Notes under the pieces: model-generated | Database searches by the model: none | Told to the model about the DNA's origin: nothing | The model's input: only the letters and a program-made list of their open reading frames with translations | Position numbers and translations under genes: made by a program | Source: Kribbia dieselivorans NBRC 106261 | GTDB lineage: Bacteria; Actinomycetota; Actinomycetes; Actinomycetales; Dermatophilaceae | Direction: 5' to 3' | Length of the DNA stretch: 64,000 bases | Assembly (NCBI RefSeq): GCF_001552435.1 | Contig: NZ_BCRE01000043.1 | Location: 1-64,000, forward strand | In this document: positions 16,607-56,681 of the stretch, piece by piece | Position numbering within the stretch: the stretch's first letter is position 1 | Layout of the letters: each line of letters opens with the position of its first letter

Positions 16607-17335
16607 GTGCCGATCCTCCGCAGCCTCAATGACCGTGTCTCCGTCATCACCATCGACCGACCCGAGCGCCGCAACGCGCTCAACCTCGACCTGCTCAACG
16701 ACGTGCACGACGCCGTCGTGGGCTCGCTCGACGACGGGGCGCGCGCGATCGTCATCACCGGTTCGGGGGGTCACTTCTGCGCCGGCGCCGACCTCAAGGA
16801 GCTCGAGGACGTGTCGTTCACCGAGCGACTCGCCGAGGTGCTGGAGCACTTCGCGTCCGTGCCGGTGACGACCATCGCCGCCATCGAGGGCTCCTGCATG
16901 GGCCTGGGCATGCAGCTGGCCGTCGGGTGTGACCTGCGCGTCGTCGCGGACTCGGCGAAGTTCGCGGTGCCGGTCTCGAAGCTCGGGCTCATGGTCAACC
17001 ACTGGACGATCGACCGTCTGACCCGCTTCTGGGGTGAGGGTGCCGCACGGCACATGGTGCTCACCGCCGAGGTGCTCACCGCCGACGATGCCTGGCGTCT
17101 CGGGTTCGCGCAGAAGCGCGGCACGCTCGAGGATGCGATAGCGCTGGCGGCGCGGGCCGTGCCGCTGGCGCCGTTGAGCCAGAGCGGGTCCAAGGTCGGG
17201 TTCGACCACCACGCGCTGCCGGAGGACATCAGTGCCTACGAGGCGGCGTTCCACCGGGCCTGGGCGAGTGAGGACCTCGCCGAGGGGCAGCGGGCGTTCG
17301 GCGAGCGACGCACGCCGGAGTTCAACGGCCGATGA
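16607..17335 (+). CDS. Enoyl-CoA hydratase/isomerase family protein
   Basis: A 242-residue crotonase-fold protein. IDRPERRNALN near residue 17 and GHFCAGADLKELED (about 53-66) form the CoA and oxyanion-hole region; GSCMGLGMQLAVGCDLRVVAD gives the second oxyanion Gly. The length fits short hydratases. The exact reaction (hydratase, isomerase or ring-opening) cannot be told. TAGAGT at 16595-16600, six bases before the GTG, suggests a leaderless mRNA. The stop overlaps the ATG of the His-rich GNAT gene (ATGA), so the two are coupled, though a functional link is not obvious. Confidence 0.85.
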   Translation: MPILRSLNDRVSVITIDRPERRNALNLDLLNDVHDAVVGSLDDGARAIVITGSGGHFCAGADLKELEDVSFTERLAEVLEHFASVPVTTIAAIEGSCMGLGMQLAVGCDLRVVADSAKFAVPVSKLGLMVNHWTIDRLTRFWGEGAARHMVLTAEVLTADDAWRLGFAQKRGTLEDAIALAARAVPLAPLSQSGSKVGFDHHALPEDISAYEAAFHRAWASEDLAEGQRAFGERRTPEFNGR

Positions 17336-18003
17336 GCGATTCGCACGGTCACTCGGGGCACGGTCACGCGGGGCACGATCACGCGGGGCACGATCACGCG
17401 GGGCACGATCACGCAGGGCACGACGGTCACGGTCACGGGCATGTCGCCGGTCCGGTGCCGGATGCGAGTGTGCGCCGGGCACGCGTCAACGACGCTCCGG
17501 CAGTCGGTCTGGTGCAGTCGGAGGTGTGGCGCGACAGCTACGCCGAGATCGTCCCGGCCGAAGTGCTCGCAACCTTCGAGCCGCAGGCGTTCGCCGGTCC
17601 GTGGCGTGAATCGCTGAGCAACCCGCCGGAGGGTGTCTGGACGCTGCTCGTGGCGTGCCTGGGCCAGCAGGTCGTCGGGTTCGTCGCGGTCGGTCCCAGC
17701 CAGGACCCCGACGCCGACGAGTTGGCCGGTGAGATCACGACGATCGCGGTGCATCCGGCGGCGCGTCGGCAGGGGCACGGCTCGCGGCTGCTCAACGCGG
17801 CCGTGGACATCCTGCGCGAGGCGGGGGCGACGAGCCTGGGCGTGTGGGCGCTGACGACGCAGGAGGACGTGCAGTCCTTCCTGCGCAGCAGTGGCATCCA
17901 GCCCGACGGCGCCTACCGCGATCGGGTGGTCTCGCCCGCGGGTGACACCGTGCGCGAGGTGCGGCTGACCGCACGGTTGGTCGACGACGCTCCCGCTGGC
18001 TGA
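17332..18003 (+). CDS. GNAT N-acetyltransferase with an extended His-rich N-terminus
   Basis: A 223-residue protein in two parts. Residues 5-37 are built from GHDHA repeats, with about sixteen histidines, and resemble the metal-binding loops of zinc and nickel chaperones or transporters. Residues about 48-215 form a GNAT fold, with the acetyl-CoA motif VHPAARRQGHGSRLL near residue 145. The acceptor is unknown. A His-rich head on a GNAT is unusual and suggests metal sensing, storage or metal-dependent control (inference). The repeats are encoded by 15-bp tandem copies (17356-17415), which should vary in number between strains. The start overlaps the upstream hydratase stop (ATGA). Confidence 0.78.
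   Translation: MSDSHGHSGHGHAGHDHAGHDHAGHDHAGHDGHGHGHVAGPVPDASVRRARVNDAPAVGLVQSEVWRDSYAEIVPAEVLATFEPQAFAGPWRESLSNPPEGVWTLLVACLGQQVVGFVAVGPSQDPDADELAGEITTIAVHPAARRQGHGSRLLNAAVDILREAGATSLGVWALTTQEDVQSFLRSSGIQPDGAYRDRVVSPAGDTVREVRLTARLVDDAPAG
17356..17415 (+). repeat. Four 15-bp tandem repeats coding GHDHA
   Basis: Four adjacent 15-bp units of gggcacgatcacgcg (first unit has one change, last unit one change) encode the His-rich repeats of the GNAT protein. Near-identity at the nucleotide level indicates recent slippage or expansion rather than old protein conservation. Confidence 0.9.
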
Positions 18004-18015
18004 CGCGACCCCGTC

Positions 18016-18546
18016 GTGGTGAACGAATTGACCGTCGAGCGGGTCCTGACGCTGGTCGAGTTGGTGCCGCCCGGCCGGGTCGTGGCCTACGGTGACCTCG
18101 GTGCCATCGTGGGGATCGGACCCCGGCAGGTCGGCGCGTTCATGGCGCACTACACCGGCGGTCTGCCGTGGTGGCGGGTGACGAACGCCGCCGGGGATCT
18201 GCCCGCGCCGCTGCTCGAGCGGGCGCGGCCGCACTGGACCGATGAGGGGATCCTCGTCAAGCCGAACGGTCGGGGGTGCCGCATCAGCCGTTACCGCGCG
18301 GATCTGGCGGCGTTGGCCGCGGAGTACGAGAGCCGGATCGCCGCGACCCTGGCCGAGTTGGGGACTCCGCTGCCGCGAACGAGCGCCCCAGCGGGCCGTG
18401 CGCTGGCCCAGGTGGGCGTCACCACCGTCGAGGAGCTCTCCGAGCACCACCGCGCCGAGGTCGCCGCGCTGCACGGGATGGGCCCGAAGGCGCTGGGCAT
18501 CCTGGACCAGGCCCTCGCCGCCGCCGACCTCACCTGGCGCCCCTGA
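18016..18546 (+). CDS. Alkyltransferase-like (ATL) protein fused to a helix-hairpin-helix domain
   Basis: The 176-residue protein begins with an MGMT-type DNA-binding domain: VPPGRVVAYGDLGAIVG and the base-flipping PRQVG (R37). The repair motif PCHRV is replaced by PWWRV (51-55), so the alkyl-accepting cysteine is absent. ATL proteins bind O6-alkylguanine and flag it for nucleotide excision repair (known). Most ATLs have PWHRV; here the His is also Trp. Residues about 122-176 (LAQVGVTTVEELSEHHRAEVAALHGMGPKAL in part) look like a helix-hairpin-helix or RNA-polymerase-alpha-CTD-like DNA-binding domain, an addition to the usual ~100-residue ATL. GTG at 18016 or 18019 is the start. Confidence 0.8.
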   Translation: MVNELTVERVLTLVELVPPGRVVAYGDLGAIVGIGPRQVGAFMAHYTGGLPWWRVTNAAGDLPAPLLERARPHWTDEGILVKPNGRGCRISRYRADLAALAAEYESRIAATLAELGTPLPRTSAPAGRALAQVGVTTVEELSEHHRAEVAALHGMGPKALGILDQALAAADLTWRP

Positions 18547-18566
18547 CAGGGCAAGGGCCCCGCACC

Positions 18567-18606
18567 GTCCTCACTTTCGTGCGATAACCGCAACGTTTGT
18601 GAGGAC
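18567..18606 (+). repeat. Left 40-bp palindromic repeat of a bounded cassette
   Basis: The unit begins GTCCTCAC and ends GTGAGGAC, so its own ends are inverted repeats. Its reverse complement recurs at 19637-19676 with about 35 of 40 positions equal. The pair encloses the DUF559-type gene. Each copy could form a hairpin in RNA or single-stranded DNA. Confidence 0.85.
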
Positions 18607-18707
18607 CGCGACAGCCTCCAGTCCATGTCCACAAGGACGAGCCAACGGTGGTGCCTGTCCACAGGGCGGCGGTGGTGGCTGTTCGGCGCCGCGGCGGCCG
18701 CCACAGA

Positions 18708-19625
18708 ATGCGGTCCATGGAACGCATCCAGAGAACTGCTGTTGCTGAACGGTTGGCGCGAGATCACGGCGGTGTGGTTCACCGGAAGAATCTGCGCGCT
18801 CACGGTGTGTCGCGATTCGATGTCCGGTCCGAGATCCTGGCTGGCCGCTGGGCTCGTTGGGGAATCCACACCGTGCGGATCCTCGCCGTGACAGCCGAGC
18901 CAGTCGCACACCACTGGCGCGCCGTTTGGGAGTCCGGTCCGAGAGCGGTTCTCGACGGGCCGGCAGCCCTGGTGGCGCAGGGCATGAAGGGGTTCGAACC
19001 GAGCACGATCGATATCAGCCTGCCGAGATCGGCCTCGGTCCGACAGTTGGAGGGAGTGACCACCCACCAGCGACGGCAACTTGAGCGGCTCATAGCCGCT
19101 GGCGTGCCCAGGATCGCGCCGGAGTGGGCGACGATTCATGCGGCAGAGTGGGCGGTAACGGATCGACAAGCTGCCCTGCTGATTTGCCTGCCTGTGCAGC
19201 AACGGCTGGTTCCGCCGCAGCGCCTGCTGACCGTGTGGCGCACGGTCGCCCGATCACGGCGTCGCGAAGTTCTCGACCACATCATCGCTGACGTCTGCGA
19301 CGGTGCACACTCGCTGGGTGAACTGGAGTTCGCCACGTGGTGCCGCCGGTATCGCCTGCCCGTTCCATCACGACAGAGCGTGAAGACCGGCCCCTCCGGC
19401 AGGGTCTACCTTGACGTTGAGTGGAAAGGGCTGGTCGTGGAGATCGATGGCGGGCACCACCTCTTGGGCCTCAACCCCACCGATGACGCCTTGCGCGCCA
19501 ACGAGTTGGTCCTCGGCACATCCCGCGTCCTGCGGATCCCGCTGTTGGGGCTGCGACTTGAGCCCGGACGCTTCATGGACCAAGTCGCTCGCGGTCTGAG
19601 GCTTTCGCCGGCCGAGGCAGCCTGA
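18708..19625 (+). CDS. AbiEi-like HTH / DUF559 (VSR-like endonuclease fold) protein
   Basis: From the ATG at 18708 the protein has 305 residues; the ATG at 18717 and an upstream start at 18648 are alternatives. The N-terminal 75 residues (AERLARDHGGVVHRKNLRAHGVSRFDVRSE in part) resemble the AbiEi antitoxin-type winged helix. The C-terminal 90 residues fit DUF559: YLDVEWKGLVVEIDGGHHL carries the D...E-x-D-G pattern of a PD-(D/E)XK/VSR nuclease, followed by RANELVLGTSRVLRIPLLGL. No cognate toxin gene is adjacent. Such proteins are common and multicopy in actinobacteria, with unknown role. The gene sits alone between inverted 40-bp palindromic repeats and has a less GC-biased composition than its neighbours, as expected of a mobile cassette (inference). 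Confidence 0.7.
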   Translation: MRSMERIQRTAVAERLARDHGGVVHRKNLRAHGVSRFDVRSEILAGRWARWGIHTVRILAVTAEPVAHHWRAVWESGPRAVLDGPAALVAQGMKGFEPSTIDISLPRSASVRQLEGVTTHQRRQLERLIAAGVPRIAPEWATIHAAEWAVTDRQAALLICLPVQQRLVPPQRLLTVWRTVARSRRREVLDHIIADVCDGAHSLGELEFATWCRRYRLPVPSRQSVKTGPSGRVYLDVEWKGLVVEIDGGHHLLGLNPTDDALRANELVLGTSRVLRIPLLGLRLEPGRFMDQVARGLRLSPAEAA

Positions 19626-19636
19626 CCGGGGTCAGG

Positions 19637-19676
19637 GTCCTCACAACCGTTGCGGTATCTGCACGAAAGTGAGGAC
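19637..19676 (-). repeat. Right 40-bp palindromic repeat of the bounded cassette
   Basis: Inverted copy of the unit at 18567-18606, starting GTCCTCAC and ending GTGAGGAC. The main differences are a four-base patch in the middle and one further base. It starts 11 bases after the DUF559-type stop codon and 20 bases before the dapB stop, so it may also serve as a shared terminator. Confidence 0.85.
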
Positions 19677-19696
19677 CCCGGCGGGGAGCCCAGGCC

Positions 19697-20437
19697 TCAG
19701 AGGCCGAGGAAGTGCTCCAGGCCGACGGTGACGCCGGGGTGGTCTGCCACCGCGCGCACGCCGGCGACGACACCGGGCATGAACGACACGCGATCGAACG
19801 AGTCGTGGCGGATCGTCAGCATCTCGCCCTCGGCCCCGAAGAGCACCTCCTGGTGTGCCACCAGCCCACGCAATCGCACCGCATGCGTCGGCACCCCGTG
19901 CACCCGCGCGCCGCGAGCCCCGTCCGGATCCTGCGTCGTCGCATCCGGCACCGGTCCCAGGCCAGCCGCCTCACGCGCCGCTCCGATGAGGTCTGCCGTG
20001 CGCGCCGCCGTGCCCGAGGGTGCGTCCACCTTGTTCGGGTGGTGCAGCTCGATGACCTCGACGGACTCGTAGAACCGCGCAGCCTGCTCGGCGAACTTCA
20101 TCATGAGGATCGCGCCGATGGCAAAGTTCGGCGCGATGAGCACCCCGACGCCGGGCTGCGCCGCCACCTGCTCGCGCAGCACCGCCAAGCGCTCCTCGTT
20201 CCACCCGGTGGTACCCACGACGACATGCACCCCGCGCGACACGCAGTGGGCGACATTGGTCGGTGACGCATCCGGCACCGAGAACTCGACGACGACATCG
20301 GCCCCACCGAGGTCACCCAACTCGTCTCCGACATCGAACCGGCCCACGAGCTCGAGCCCATCGGCAGCCTCAACCGCGTCACACACCGTGGCACCCATTC
20401 GGCCGGCCGCACCGATCACCGCAACCTTCGTCGTCAT
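19697..20437 (-). CDS. dapB: 4-hydroxy-tetrahydrodipicolinate reductase
   Basis: The 246-residue enzyme reduces the DapA product with NAD(P)H in lysine and diaminopimelate synthesis. The Rossmann motif VAVIGAAGRMG is at residues 5-15. ELHHPNKVDAPSGTA (about 130-145) holds the catalytic His and Lys. The TTGW and APNFAIGA segments bind cofactor and substrate. The family and length are clear. TAGGCT at 20444-20449, six bases before the ATG, suggests leaderless transcription. It stands alone rather than beside dapA, with the DUF559 cassette placed just 3' of it. Confidence 0.95.
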   Translation of the reverse strand: MTTKVAVIGAAGRMGATVCDAVEAADGLELVGRFDVGDELGDLGGADVVVEFSVPDASPTNVAHCVSRGVHVVVGTTGWNEERLAVLREQVAAQPGVGVLIAPNFAIGAILMMKFAEQAARFYESVEVIELHHPNKVDAPSGTAARTADLIGAAREAAGLGPVPDATTQDPDGARGARVHGVPTHAVRLRGLVAHQEVLFGAEGEMLTIRHDSFDRVSFMPGVVAGVRAVADHPGVTVGLEHFLGL

Positions 20438-56622: not shown

Positions 56623-56642
56623 CCGACACACCGACAGGGTCC
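56623..56642 (+). repeat. 20-bp direct repeat, left copy
   Basis: CCGACACACCGACAGGGTCC is repeated exactly at 57375-57394, in the same orientation. The two copies flank the secreted-protein gene, as if that 750-bp segment had been inserted or duplicated. The last seven bases also belong to the terminator hairpin. Confidence 0.85.
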
Positions 56643-56681
56643 TGCGAAGCGCGCGCTATACCGCGCGTTTCGCAGGACCCT
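56636..56681. terminator. 20-bp hairpin after valS
   Basis: AGGGTCCTGCGAA pairs with its inverse complement at 56669-56681, and inner CGCGCG arms (56550-type spacing, 56650-56655 with 56662-56667) extend the stem to about 20 bp including one G-T pair, leaving a six-base loop. It lies between valS and the convergent secreted-protein gene and could end both transcripts. There is no T-tract. Confidence 0.8.

Follow-up and report, generated by a model that had tools for sequence, protein, structure and literature searches.

A one-gene cassette bounded by private palindromes, with a predicted AbiEi-nuclease fusion, in Kribbia dieselivorans and related actinobacteria

What kind of unit is formed by a single gene enclosed between two inverse palindromes? 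The question is raised by a locus of Kribbia dieselivorans NBRC 106261, in a window of 64,000 nucleotides (the whole stretch analysed, contig NZ_BCRE01000043.1, positions 1 to 64,000). The initial annotation of this DNA had described two 40-bp repeats, alike at about 35 positions in inverse orientation and enclosing a nuclease gene, and had proposed a mobile unit reminiscent of the REP/RAYT systems. We report here which parts of this proposal stand, and which reading of the locus is best supported by the comparison with related genomes.

The window locus and its gene

The two repeats were confirmed at the expected places (Table 1). Compared in inverse orientation, the left and right 40-mers match at 35 of 40 positions without gap, where none is expected by chance. 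Both have the form GTCCTCAC-N24-GTGAGGAC, a pattern with two occurrences in the window and none in 100 dinucleotide shuffles. The 46-nt arms around the gene are 85% complementary, and 93% complementary across 42 columns with a 1-nt shift. Folded as single-stranded DNA, both palindromes are much more stable than their shuffled versions (see the z scores in Table 1). An Rfam search for known structured RNA returned none, and no terminator consisting of a hairpin and a T-run was detected in 18400-19900, a criterion that leaves the T-less type outside it. The single enclosed gene of the initial annotation was also recovered, since the gene on the + strand is the only plausible one between the palindromes.

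Table 1. Features of the window locus, and a solo palindrome of the same family elsewhere in the window
Feature	Positions	Strand	Remarks
ATL (alkyltransferase-like) gene	18016-18546	+	neighbour of the gene
Left 40-bp palindrome, GTCCTCACTTTCGTGCGATAACCGCAACGTTTGTGAGGAC	18567..18606		110 bp 5′ of the probable start codon; DNA hairpin z -5.4
AbiEi-DUF559 fusion gene (predicted), 302 aa	18717..19625	+	ATG 18717; ORF open from GTG 18648; AF2 model pLDDT 92
Predicted winged-helix DNA-binding domain, residues 1-58	18717..18890	+	AbiEi 6y8q within Z 13.3 (residues 1-194); many winged-helix matches at 1-60
Predicted second AbiEi domain, nucleotidyltransferase-like fold, residues 59-190	18891..19286	+	MenT1 8an5 Z 8.2; ANT(2″) 4wqk Z 6.6 (residues 60-197)
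Predicted DUF559-like PD-(D/E)XK nuclease domain, residues 195-302	19299..19622	+	invariant columns, PF04480 in relatives, weak fold matches
Right 40-bp palindrome, GTCCTCACAACCGTTGCGGTATCTGCACGAAAGTGAGGAC	19637..19676		11 bp 3′ of the stop; inverse of left; DNA hairpin z -5.1
dapB	19697-20437	-	neighbour of the gene
Solo palindrome, same 40-bp family, other arms (GTCCTGCGAAGCGCGCGCTATACCGCGCGTTTCGCAGGAC)	56639..56678		between convergent genes; DNA hairpin z -8.3

The ATG of Table 1 was taken as the probable start codon because the alignments with homologs begin at about residue 24 of the ORF. An AlphaFold2 model of the protein was built on 56 relatives, with a mean pLDDT of 92. Two known structures can be overlaid on its residues 1-194, an AbiEi antitoxin from Streptococcus agalactiae (6y8q, Z 13.3, rmsd 3.9 for 183 residues) and Rv2827c from M. 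tuberculosis (1zel, Z 8.6). The AbiEi profile of PADLOC also matches the window protein (E 2.8e-9). With Pfam, AbiEi_4 was detected in 27 and DUF559 (PF04480) in 18 of the 56 relatives, the window protein itself remaining below threshold. No Pfam transposase was found in the window protein or the 56 relatives, and no DDE, serine, tyrosine or HUH transposase was recognised in this set.

Across the relatives, residues E202 (19320-19322), D233 (19413-19415), E242 (19440-19442) and H248 are invariant. The nuclease domain modelled alone gave weak fold matches (Z ≤4.3) to EndoMS, the Can/Cdn nucleases, Hjc and I-Bth0305I, with PD-(D/E)XK enzymes at the top, while Foldseek with this domain alone gave no significant match. 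We name it PD-(D/E)XK-like because of its motif and family, the fold matches adding weak support. We conclude from the model that the window protein is most simply described as a complete AbiEi-antitoxin fold fused to a predicted DUF559-like PD-(D/E)XK nuclease domain. The VSR-type nuclease first proposed is thus retained as a domain and abandoned as a plain nuclease, the AbiEi fold making up two thirds of the protein. Next to this locus, a GNAT acetyltransferase (window 17332-18003) has a long, repetitive N-terminus rich in His and Asp (HDHAGHDHAGHDHAGHD), perhaps metal-binding.

Palindromes at cassettes and as solo copies

Homologs of the gene were found in 53 of the 396 genomes of the order. 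The named relatives (Knoellia, Janibacter, Ornithinimicrobium, Flexivirga, Terrabacter and others) place the host in the Dermatophilaceae/Intrasporangiaceae. The window genome has only one such gene, even by profile search, and no paralog. A plasmid search gave no match to the gene. Carriage by phages is not supported either, as the sole match in a phage collection lies on an unverified scaffold from faeces, next to bacterial genes such as a trmB-like one. MT837139.1 (L281), filed as a phage of human faeces, contains a 57% homolog among bacterial housekeeping genes and is likely a mislabelled actinobacterial contig.

Inverse repeats linking the upstream and downstream flanks (E<1e-4) were present at 26 of 78 relatives' loci, whereas none of 151 mismatched flank pairs had them. 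A palindrome-aware scan raised the matched flanking pairs to about 42 of the relatives, and nearly half of the relatives have no clear matched pair. The palindromes of these cassettes are 40-50 bp long, and some units carry the interior in direct orientation. Arms are common to the left and right of one gene and differ between genes, even at the same orthologous site.

Palindromes of the same type also occur alone. The window genome has about 26 such solos; others are found in Knoellia/Janibacter, and an additional genus has solos with arms of a different type. Within the window genome, the GTCCTCAC form occupies ~10 sites and the related GTCATGCA form ~15, every one of 40 bp. A loose 40-bp pattern, of 16 fixed bases only, detected 21 sites in this genome and 2-9 in each of six Knoellia/Janibacter genomes; it had no site in 25 other genomes within the family, nor in a backward-read control. 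Copy numbers are low, from 2 to about 26.

The gene of Knoellia sp. Soil729 has GTCATGCC palindromes (GGTCATGCC); the only GTCATGCC elements of that genome are the two at the gene, and it has no element of the GTCCTCAC family. K. remsis has GTCATGCC solos and no GTCATGCC gene. Most solos of the window genome have GTCATGCA arms and not the GTCCTCAC arms of its sole gene, and with a single gene in the genome, the GTCATGCA solos are therefore left with no visible cognate. This cognate gene may be lost or hidden by a gap in the assembly; alternatively, these solos may be served by the window gene. In the additional genus (genome G213), unit 2, which has TTCGAGGTA arms, is accompanied by four solos in the 1.2 of 4.0 Mb searched, all of 44 bp and sharing their loop (37 of 40 arm shuffles gave none); the other unit of this genome had no solo copy in 1.2 of 4.0 Mb.

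Forty-one solos were placed relative to genes, using heuristic gene calls. The flanking genes are convergent for 14 of them, tandem for 17 and divergent for 6, and the solos are mostly <60 bp from a 3′ end, and the sole one flagged as intragenic sits just at the edge of a predicted ORF. One orthologous gene end in Knoellia has a solo in two genomes and none in seven. Palindrome copies on the same contig resemble each other more than those on different contigs (0.78 versus 0.66, 3/2000 permutations).

Several other arrangements were noted in passing. In the window genome, GTCATGCA palindromes form clusters on contigs C71 (L221, L222) and C122 (L223, three in 550 bp). On contig C171 (L076:2840-3636), a higBA-like TA pair lies between two near-identical direct palindromes of the 40-bp family, a possible passenger cassette, and on contig C162 (L224:36-1105) a gene of the predicted secreted endonuclease/exonuclease/phosphatase type lies inside two near-identical direct GTCATGCA palindromes ~1 kb apart. 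An identical GTCATGCC pair surrounds one 240-aa gene in Knoellia remsis (L228:537-1406, G277:C20), a genome with no GTCATGCC-type nuclease gene.

Palindrome arms covary as hairpins. When 67 elements were aligned, 90.6% of the cells paired and double changes were found in 145 cells, against 57 in shuffles; the ends (GTC/GAC) are invariant and the arms variable. Because some of these elements had been chosen as palindromes, covariation was recounted at positions not fixed by the pattern: over 54 loose-pattern sites, 82% were Watson-Crick pairs, compared to 51% after shuffling (maximum 58%).

Could all these palindromes simply be bidirectional GC-rich terminators devoid of a T-run, insulating genes, alike through local gene conversion, with a nuclease that mobilises nothing? 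Strong hairpins with covarying stems, set mainly beside the 3′ ends of genes and in convergent intervals, would suit such a role. We find it highly improbable nevertheless, as one copy is upstream of the gene, six solos separate divergent genes, and no site was found in 18400-19900 by the T-run criterion. Moreover, arms are private to a gene and common to its left and right copies, and the 25 related genomes lacking the family need terminators equally. The last two observations also dispose of the generic terminator unrelated to DUF559 genes, which the initial annotation had kept as its counter-hypothesis.

A pair of 23-bp inverted repeats separated by 3 bp is the binding site of a known AbiEi, which requires its second domain too (PMC7319586). 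The 40-50-bp size of the palindromes is that of such paired repeats. Among 43 units, partial Mantel tests related arm similarity to the winged-helix domain (p 0.014) and to the nucleotidyltransferase-like domain (p 0.001), with small effect sizes, and no tracking was found for the nuclease domain (p 0.19). In these sequence comparisons, arm similarity is thus seen to track the AbiEi half, not the nuclease.

Exchange and flips at fixed sites

Cassette sites were named from a comparison of flanks, the gene names being read off the sequences and not all by profile: site A (ispG-GNAT / SRPBCC-ATL), site B (DUF4229 / menA), site C (beside rpmE), site D (MerR / aldehyde dehydrogenase-like) and site E (purF / purM). 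Both gene orientations are encountered at sites A, B, C and E, where a quick gene tree requires at least 1, 2, 4 and 2 changes, respectively. Site E, filled in both orientations in other genomes, is empty in an Ornithinimicrobium genome, where about 80 bp separate purF and purM and no palindrome is found. No target-site duplication was seen, the empty sites being too diverged (about 80%) for breakpoints to be placed.

Two pairs of genomes are informative. In the Humibacillus pair L109/L113, the 5.8 kb to either side of site C are 92% identical, whereas the cassette gene is reversed and bordered by other palindromes, and its four-fold sites are 44% identical, compared to 73-88% in the flanking genes. 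In L161/L165, at site E, the corresponding values are 39% and 79-88%, with no flip. The L157/L158 pair shows no cassette replacement. From the first two pairs we conclude that cassettes are exchanged as palindrome-bounded units. Simple inversion of one cassette in L109/L113 was ruled out, since the silent sites of the gene are far more diverged than the flanks, and the same silent-site excess ruled out that the gene diverged because its protein evolves faster.

The window gene itself groups with the Knoellia genes of site A in a quick tree and adjoins ATL as at this site, yet it is flipped, with a breakpoint; the other half of site A lies elsewhere in the window genome, with neither unit nor palindrome. 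A unit beside dapB is missing in 29 other genera, bar one with a distant homolog (39%). The dapB-ATL junction was rejected as a clean empty site, ATL not being adjacent to dapB in other genera. The distant homolog of the nuclease gene (about 39%) beside dapB in another genus (L194, G408) is apparently an independent use of the site.

Two further observations concern cassette borders. At site A, a GTCATGCC palindrome (L234:1656-1695, G359:C1:2758655) lies ~400 bp from a GTCCTCAC cassette and is possibly the relic of a replaced one. At site E, tandem palindrome duplications border the cassettes of L162 and L148 at either end and that of L150 at its downstream end, which suggests palindrome arrays growing at the cassette border.

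The mobility put forward at the outset is therefore partly upheld: exchange and flips occur in related soil bacteria, whereas the unit does not hop freely, many copies being at shared inherited sites.

The chief rival to our reading is an anti-phage or other defence-type gene, a nuclease with an AbiEi regulator, swapped at hot spots by homologous recombination between flanks, the palindromes being operators and terminators and the solos remnants of lost cassettes. Defence genes typically show the rapid exchange of highly diverged genes that the cassettes display at their fixed sites. AbiEi domains belong to abortive-infection systems (PADLOC match, E 2.8e-9), and AbiEi autoregulates via inverted repeats (PMC7319586). 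Set against this are a palindrome that is also present downstream of the gene, solos that outnumber cassettes, lie mainly next to the 3′ ends of genes, at positions that species do not share, and cluster as near-identical neighbours, and the flips themselves, as exchange driven by the flanks would leave the cassette unflipped. On balance we consider a pure defence gene unlikely.

Fixed intergenic sites with empty and filled alleles, and resident cassettes that are replaced, also call to mind homing, in which the nuclease cuts the recipient allele and repair copies the cassette in, palindromes being recognition sites and borders and solos by-products. The nuclease domain also weakly resembles Hjc and the homing enzyme I-Bth0305I in fold. 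Intact palindromes on both sides would however stay cut sites, and the empty purF/purM site has no palindrome, so that homing appears very unlikely to us.

Proposed mechanism and comparison with known systems

The reading we prefer, at a probability of roughly 60%, is that of a one-gene, palindrome-bounded cassette, REPtron-like, whose AbiEi-PD-(D/E)XK fusion would act on its own palindromes. From the observed architecture, private arms, solos, covariation, exchange and flips, we infer binding, cutting and movement as follows. By analogy with the known AbiEi, the AbiEi half would bind the palindrome as two half-sites; at the left copy this would repress the gene, and at all copies it would mark the palindrome for the nuclease half, which would nick or cut there. 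Repair from another copy would then homogenise the left and right palindromes, seed new solos, preferentially nearby, flip the cassette and let a newly arrived cassette displace the one already present. Folding of the palindrome into a hairpin would probably help recognition or resolution. Replacement and inversion could be carried out by the host's own recombination.

More tentatively, at somewhat less than even odds, the cassettes may represent a class of repeat-spreading elements, in which an AbiEi-type DNA binder with a restriction-like nuclease copies its own palindromic site with a fast-changing specificity, leaving sister species with mutually foreign families, as a non-homologous counterpart of REP/RAYT. 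To our knowledge, the HUH tyrosine transposases (RAYTs) are the only enzyme family tied to dispersed bacterial palindromes. If the proposal is true, a second, non-homologous enzyme would mean that palindrome populations can evolve independently, in a simple and testable system. In that case a role would also be given to solitary AbiEi-DUF559 proteins, whose annotation is that of an antitoxin or an unknown. The many natural enzyme/palindrome pairs would also serve for deriving recognition rules. For the CGTC-type REPs, no enzyme is known (PMC3733652). In the openly accessible literature searched, no paper ties DUF559 to palindromes or transposition.

Compared to known systems, the cassette shares terminal inverted repeats with insertion sequences and TIR transposons, and is not an insertion sequence because it has no transposase. 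With the type IV TA system AbiE (AbiEi; Rv2827c) it has in common the predicted full AbiEi fold with an N-terminal winged helix (residues 1-194) and palindromes of 40-50 bp that resemble the paired 23-bp operator repeats (PMC7319586). Unlike AbiE, it has no adjoining AbiEii toxin gene (the neighbours are ATL and dapB), which is why we do not file it there, and it has a fused nuclease and repeats on both sides and elsewhere. The DUF559 (PF04480)/Vsr-like proteins share the conserved E, D and ExDG-H motif, with PF04480 in 18/56 relatives, and differ by lacking the AbiEi fusion and private palindromes, while the cassette has no methyltransferase link. Vsr-like homing genes (I-Bth0305I) are likewise mobile single-gene units at fixed sites, with a small PD-(D/E)XK-fold nuclease, but the cassette has its own palindromic borders and flips orientation.

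The closest parallel is REP/RAYT (REPtrons, REPINs, TIRtrons), with its short dispersed intergenic palindromes mostly 3′ of genes (PMC3733652, PMC3116915), its dedicated single-copy gene flanked by its own private palindromes, and presence or absence between relatives. The enzyme there is an HUH/Y1 tyrosine transposase, against a predicted AbiEi-PD-(D/E)XK fusion here, and the GTAG/CGTC tag of REPs is found at none of the ends of the 67 aligned elements. Lower copy number, exchange and flips at fixed sites, and actinobacterial hosts also set the cassette apart. The likeness to REP/RAYT that prompted this analysis therefore holds as an analogy (cognate flanking palindromes, solos, gene-private specificity, cassette replacement at fixed sites) and not as membership, the cassette not being a REPtron because it has no HUH transposase. 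We rate it as new in kind, with a putative function, because its enzyme is unrelated to the known repeat-propagating enzymes.
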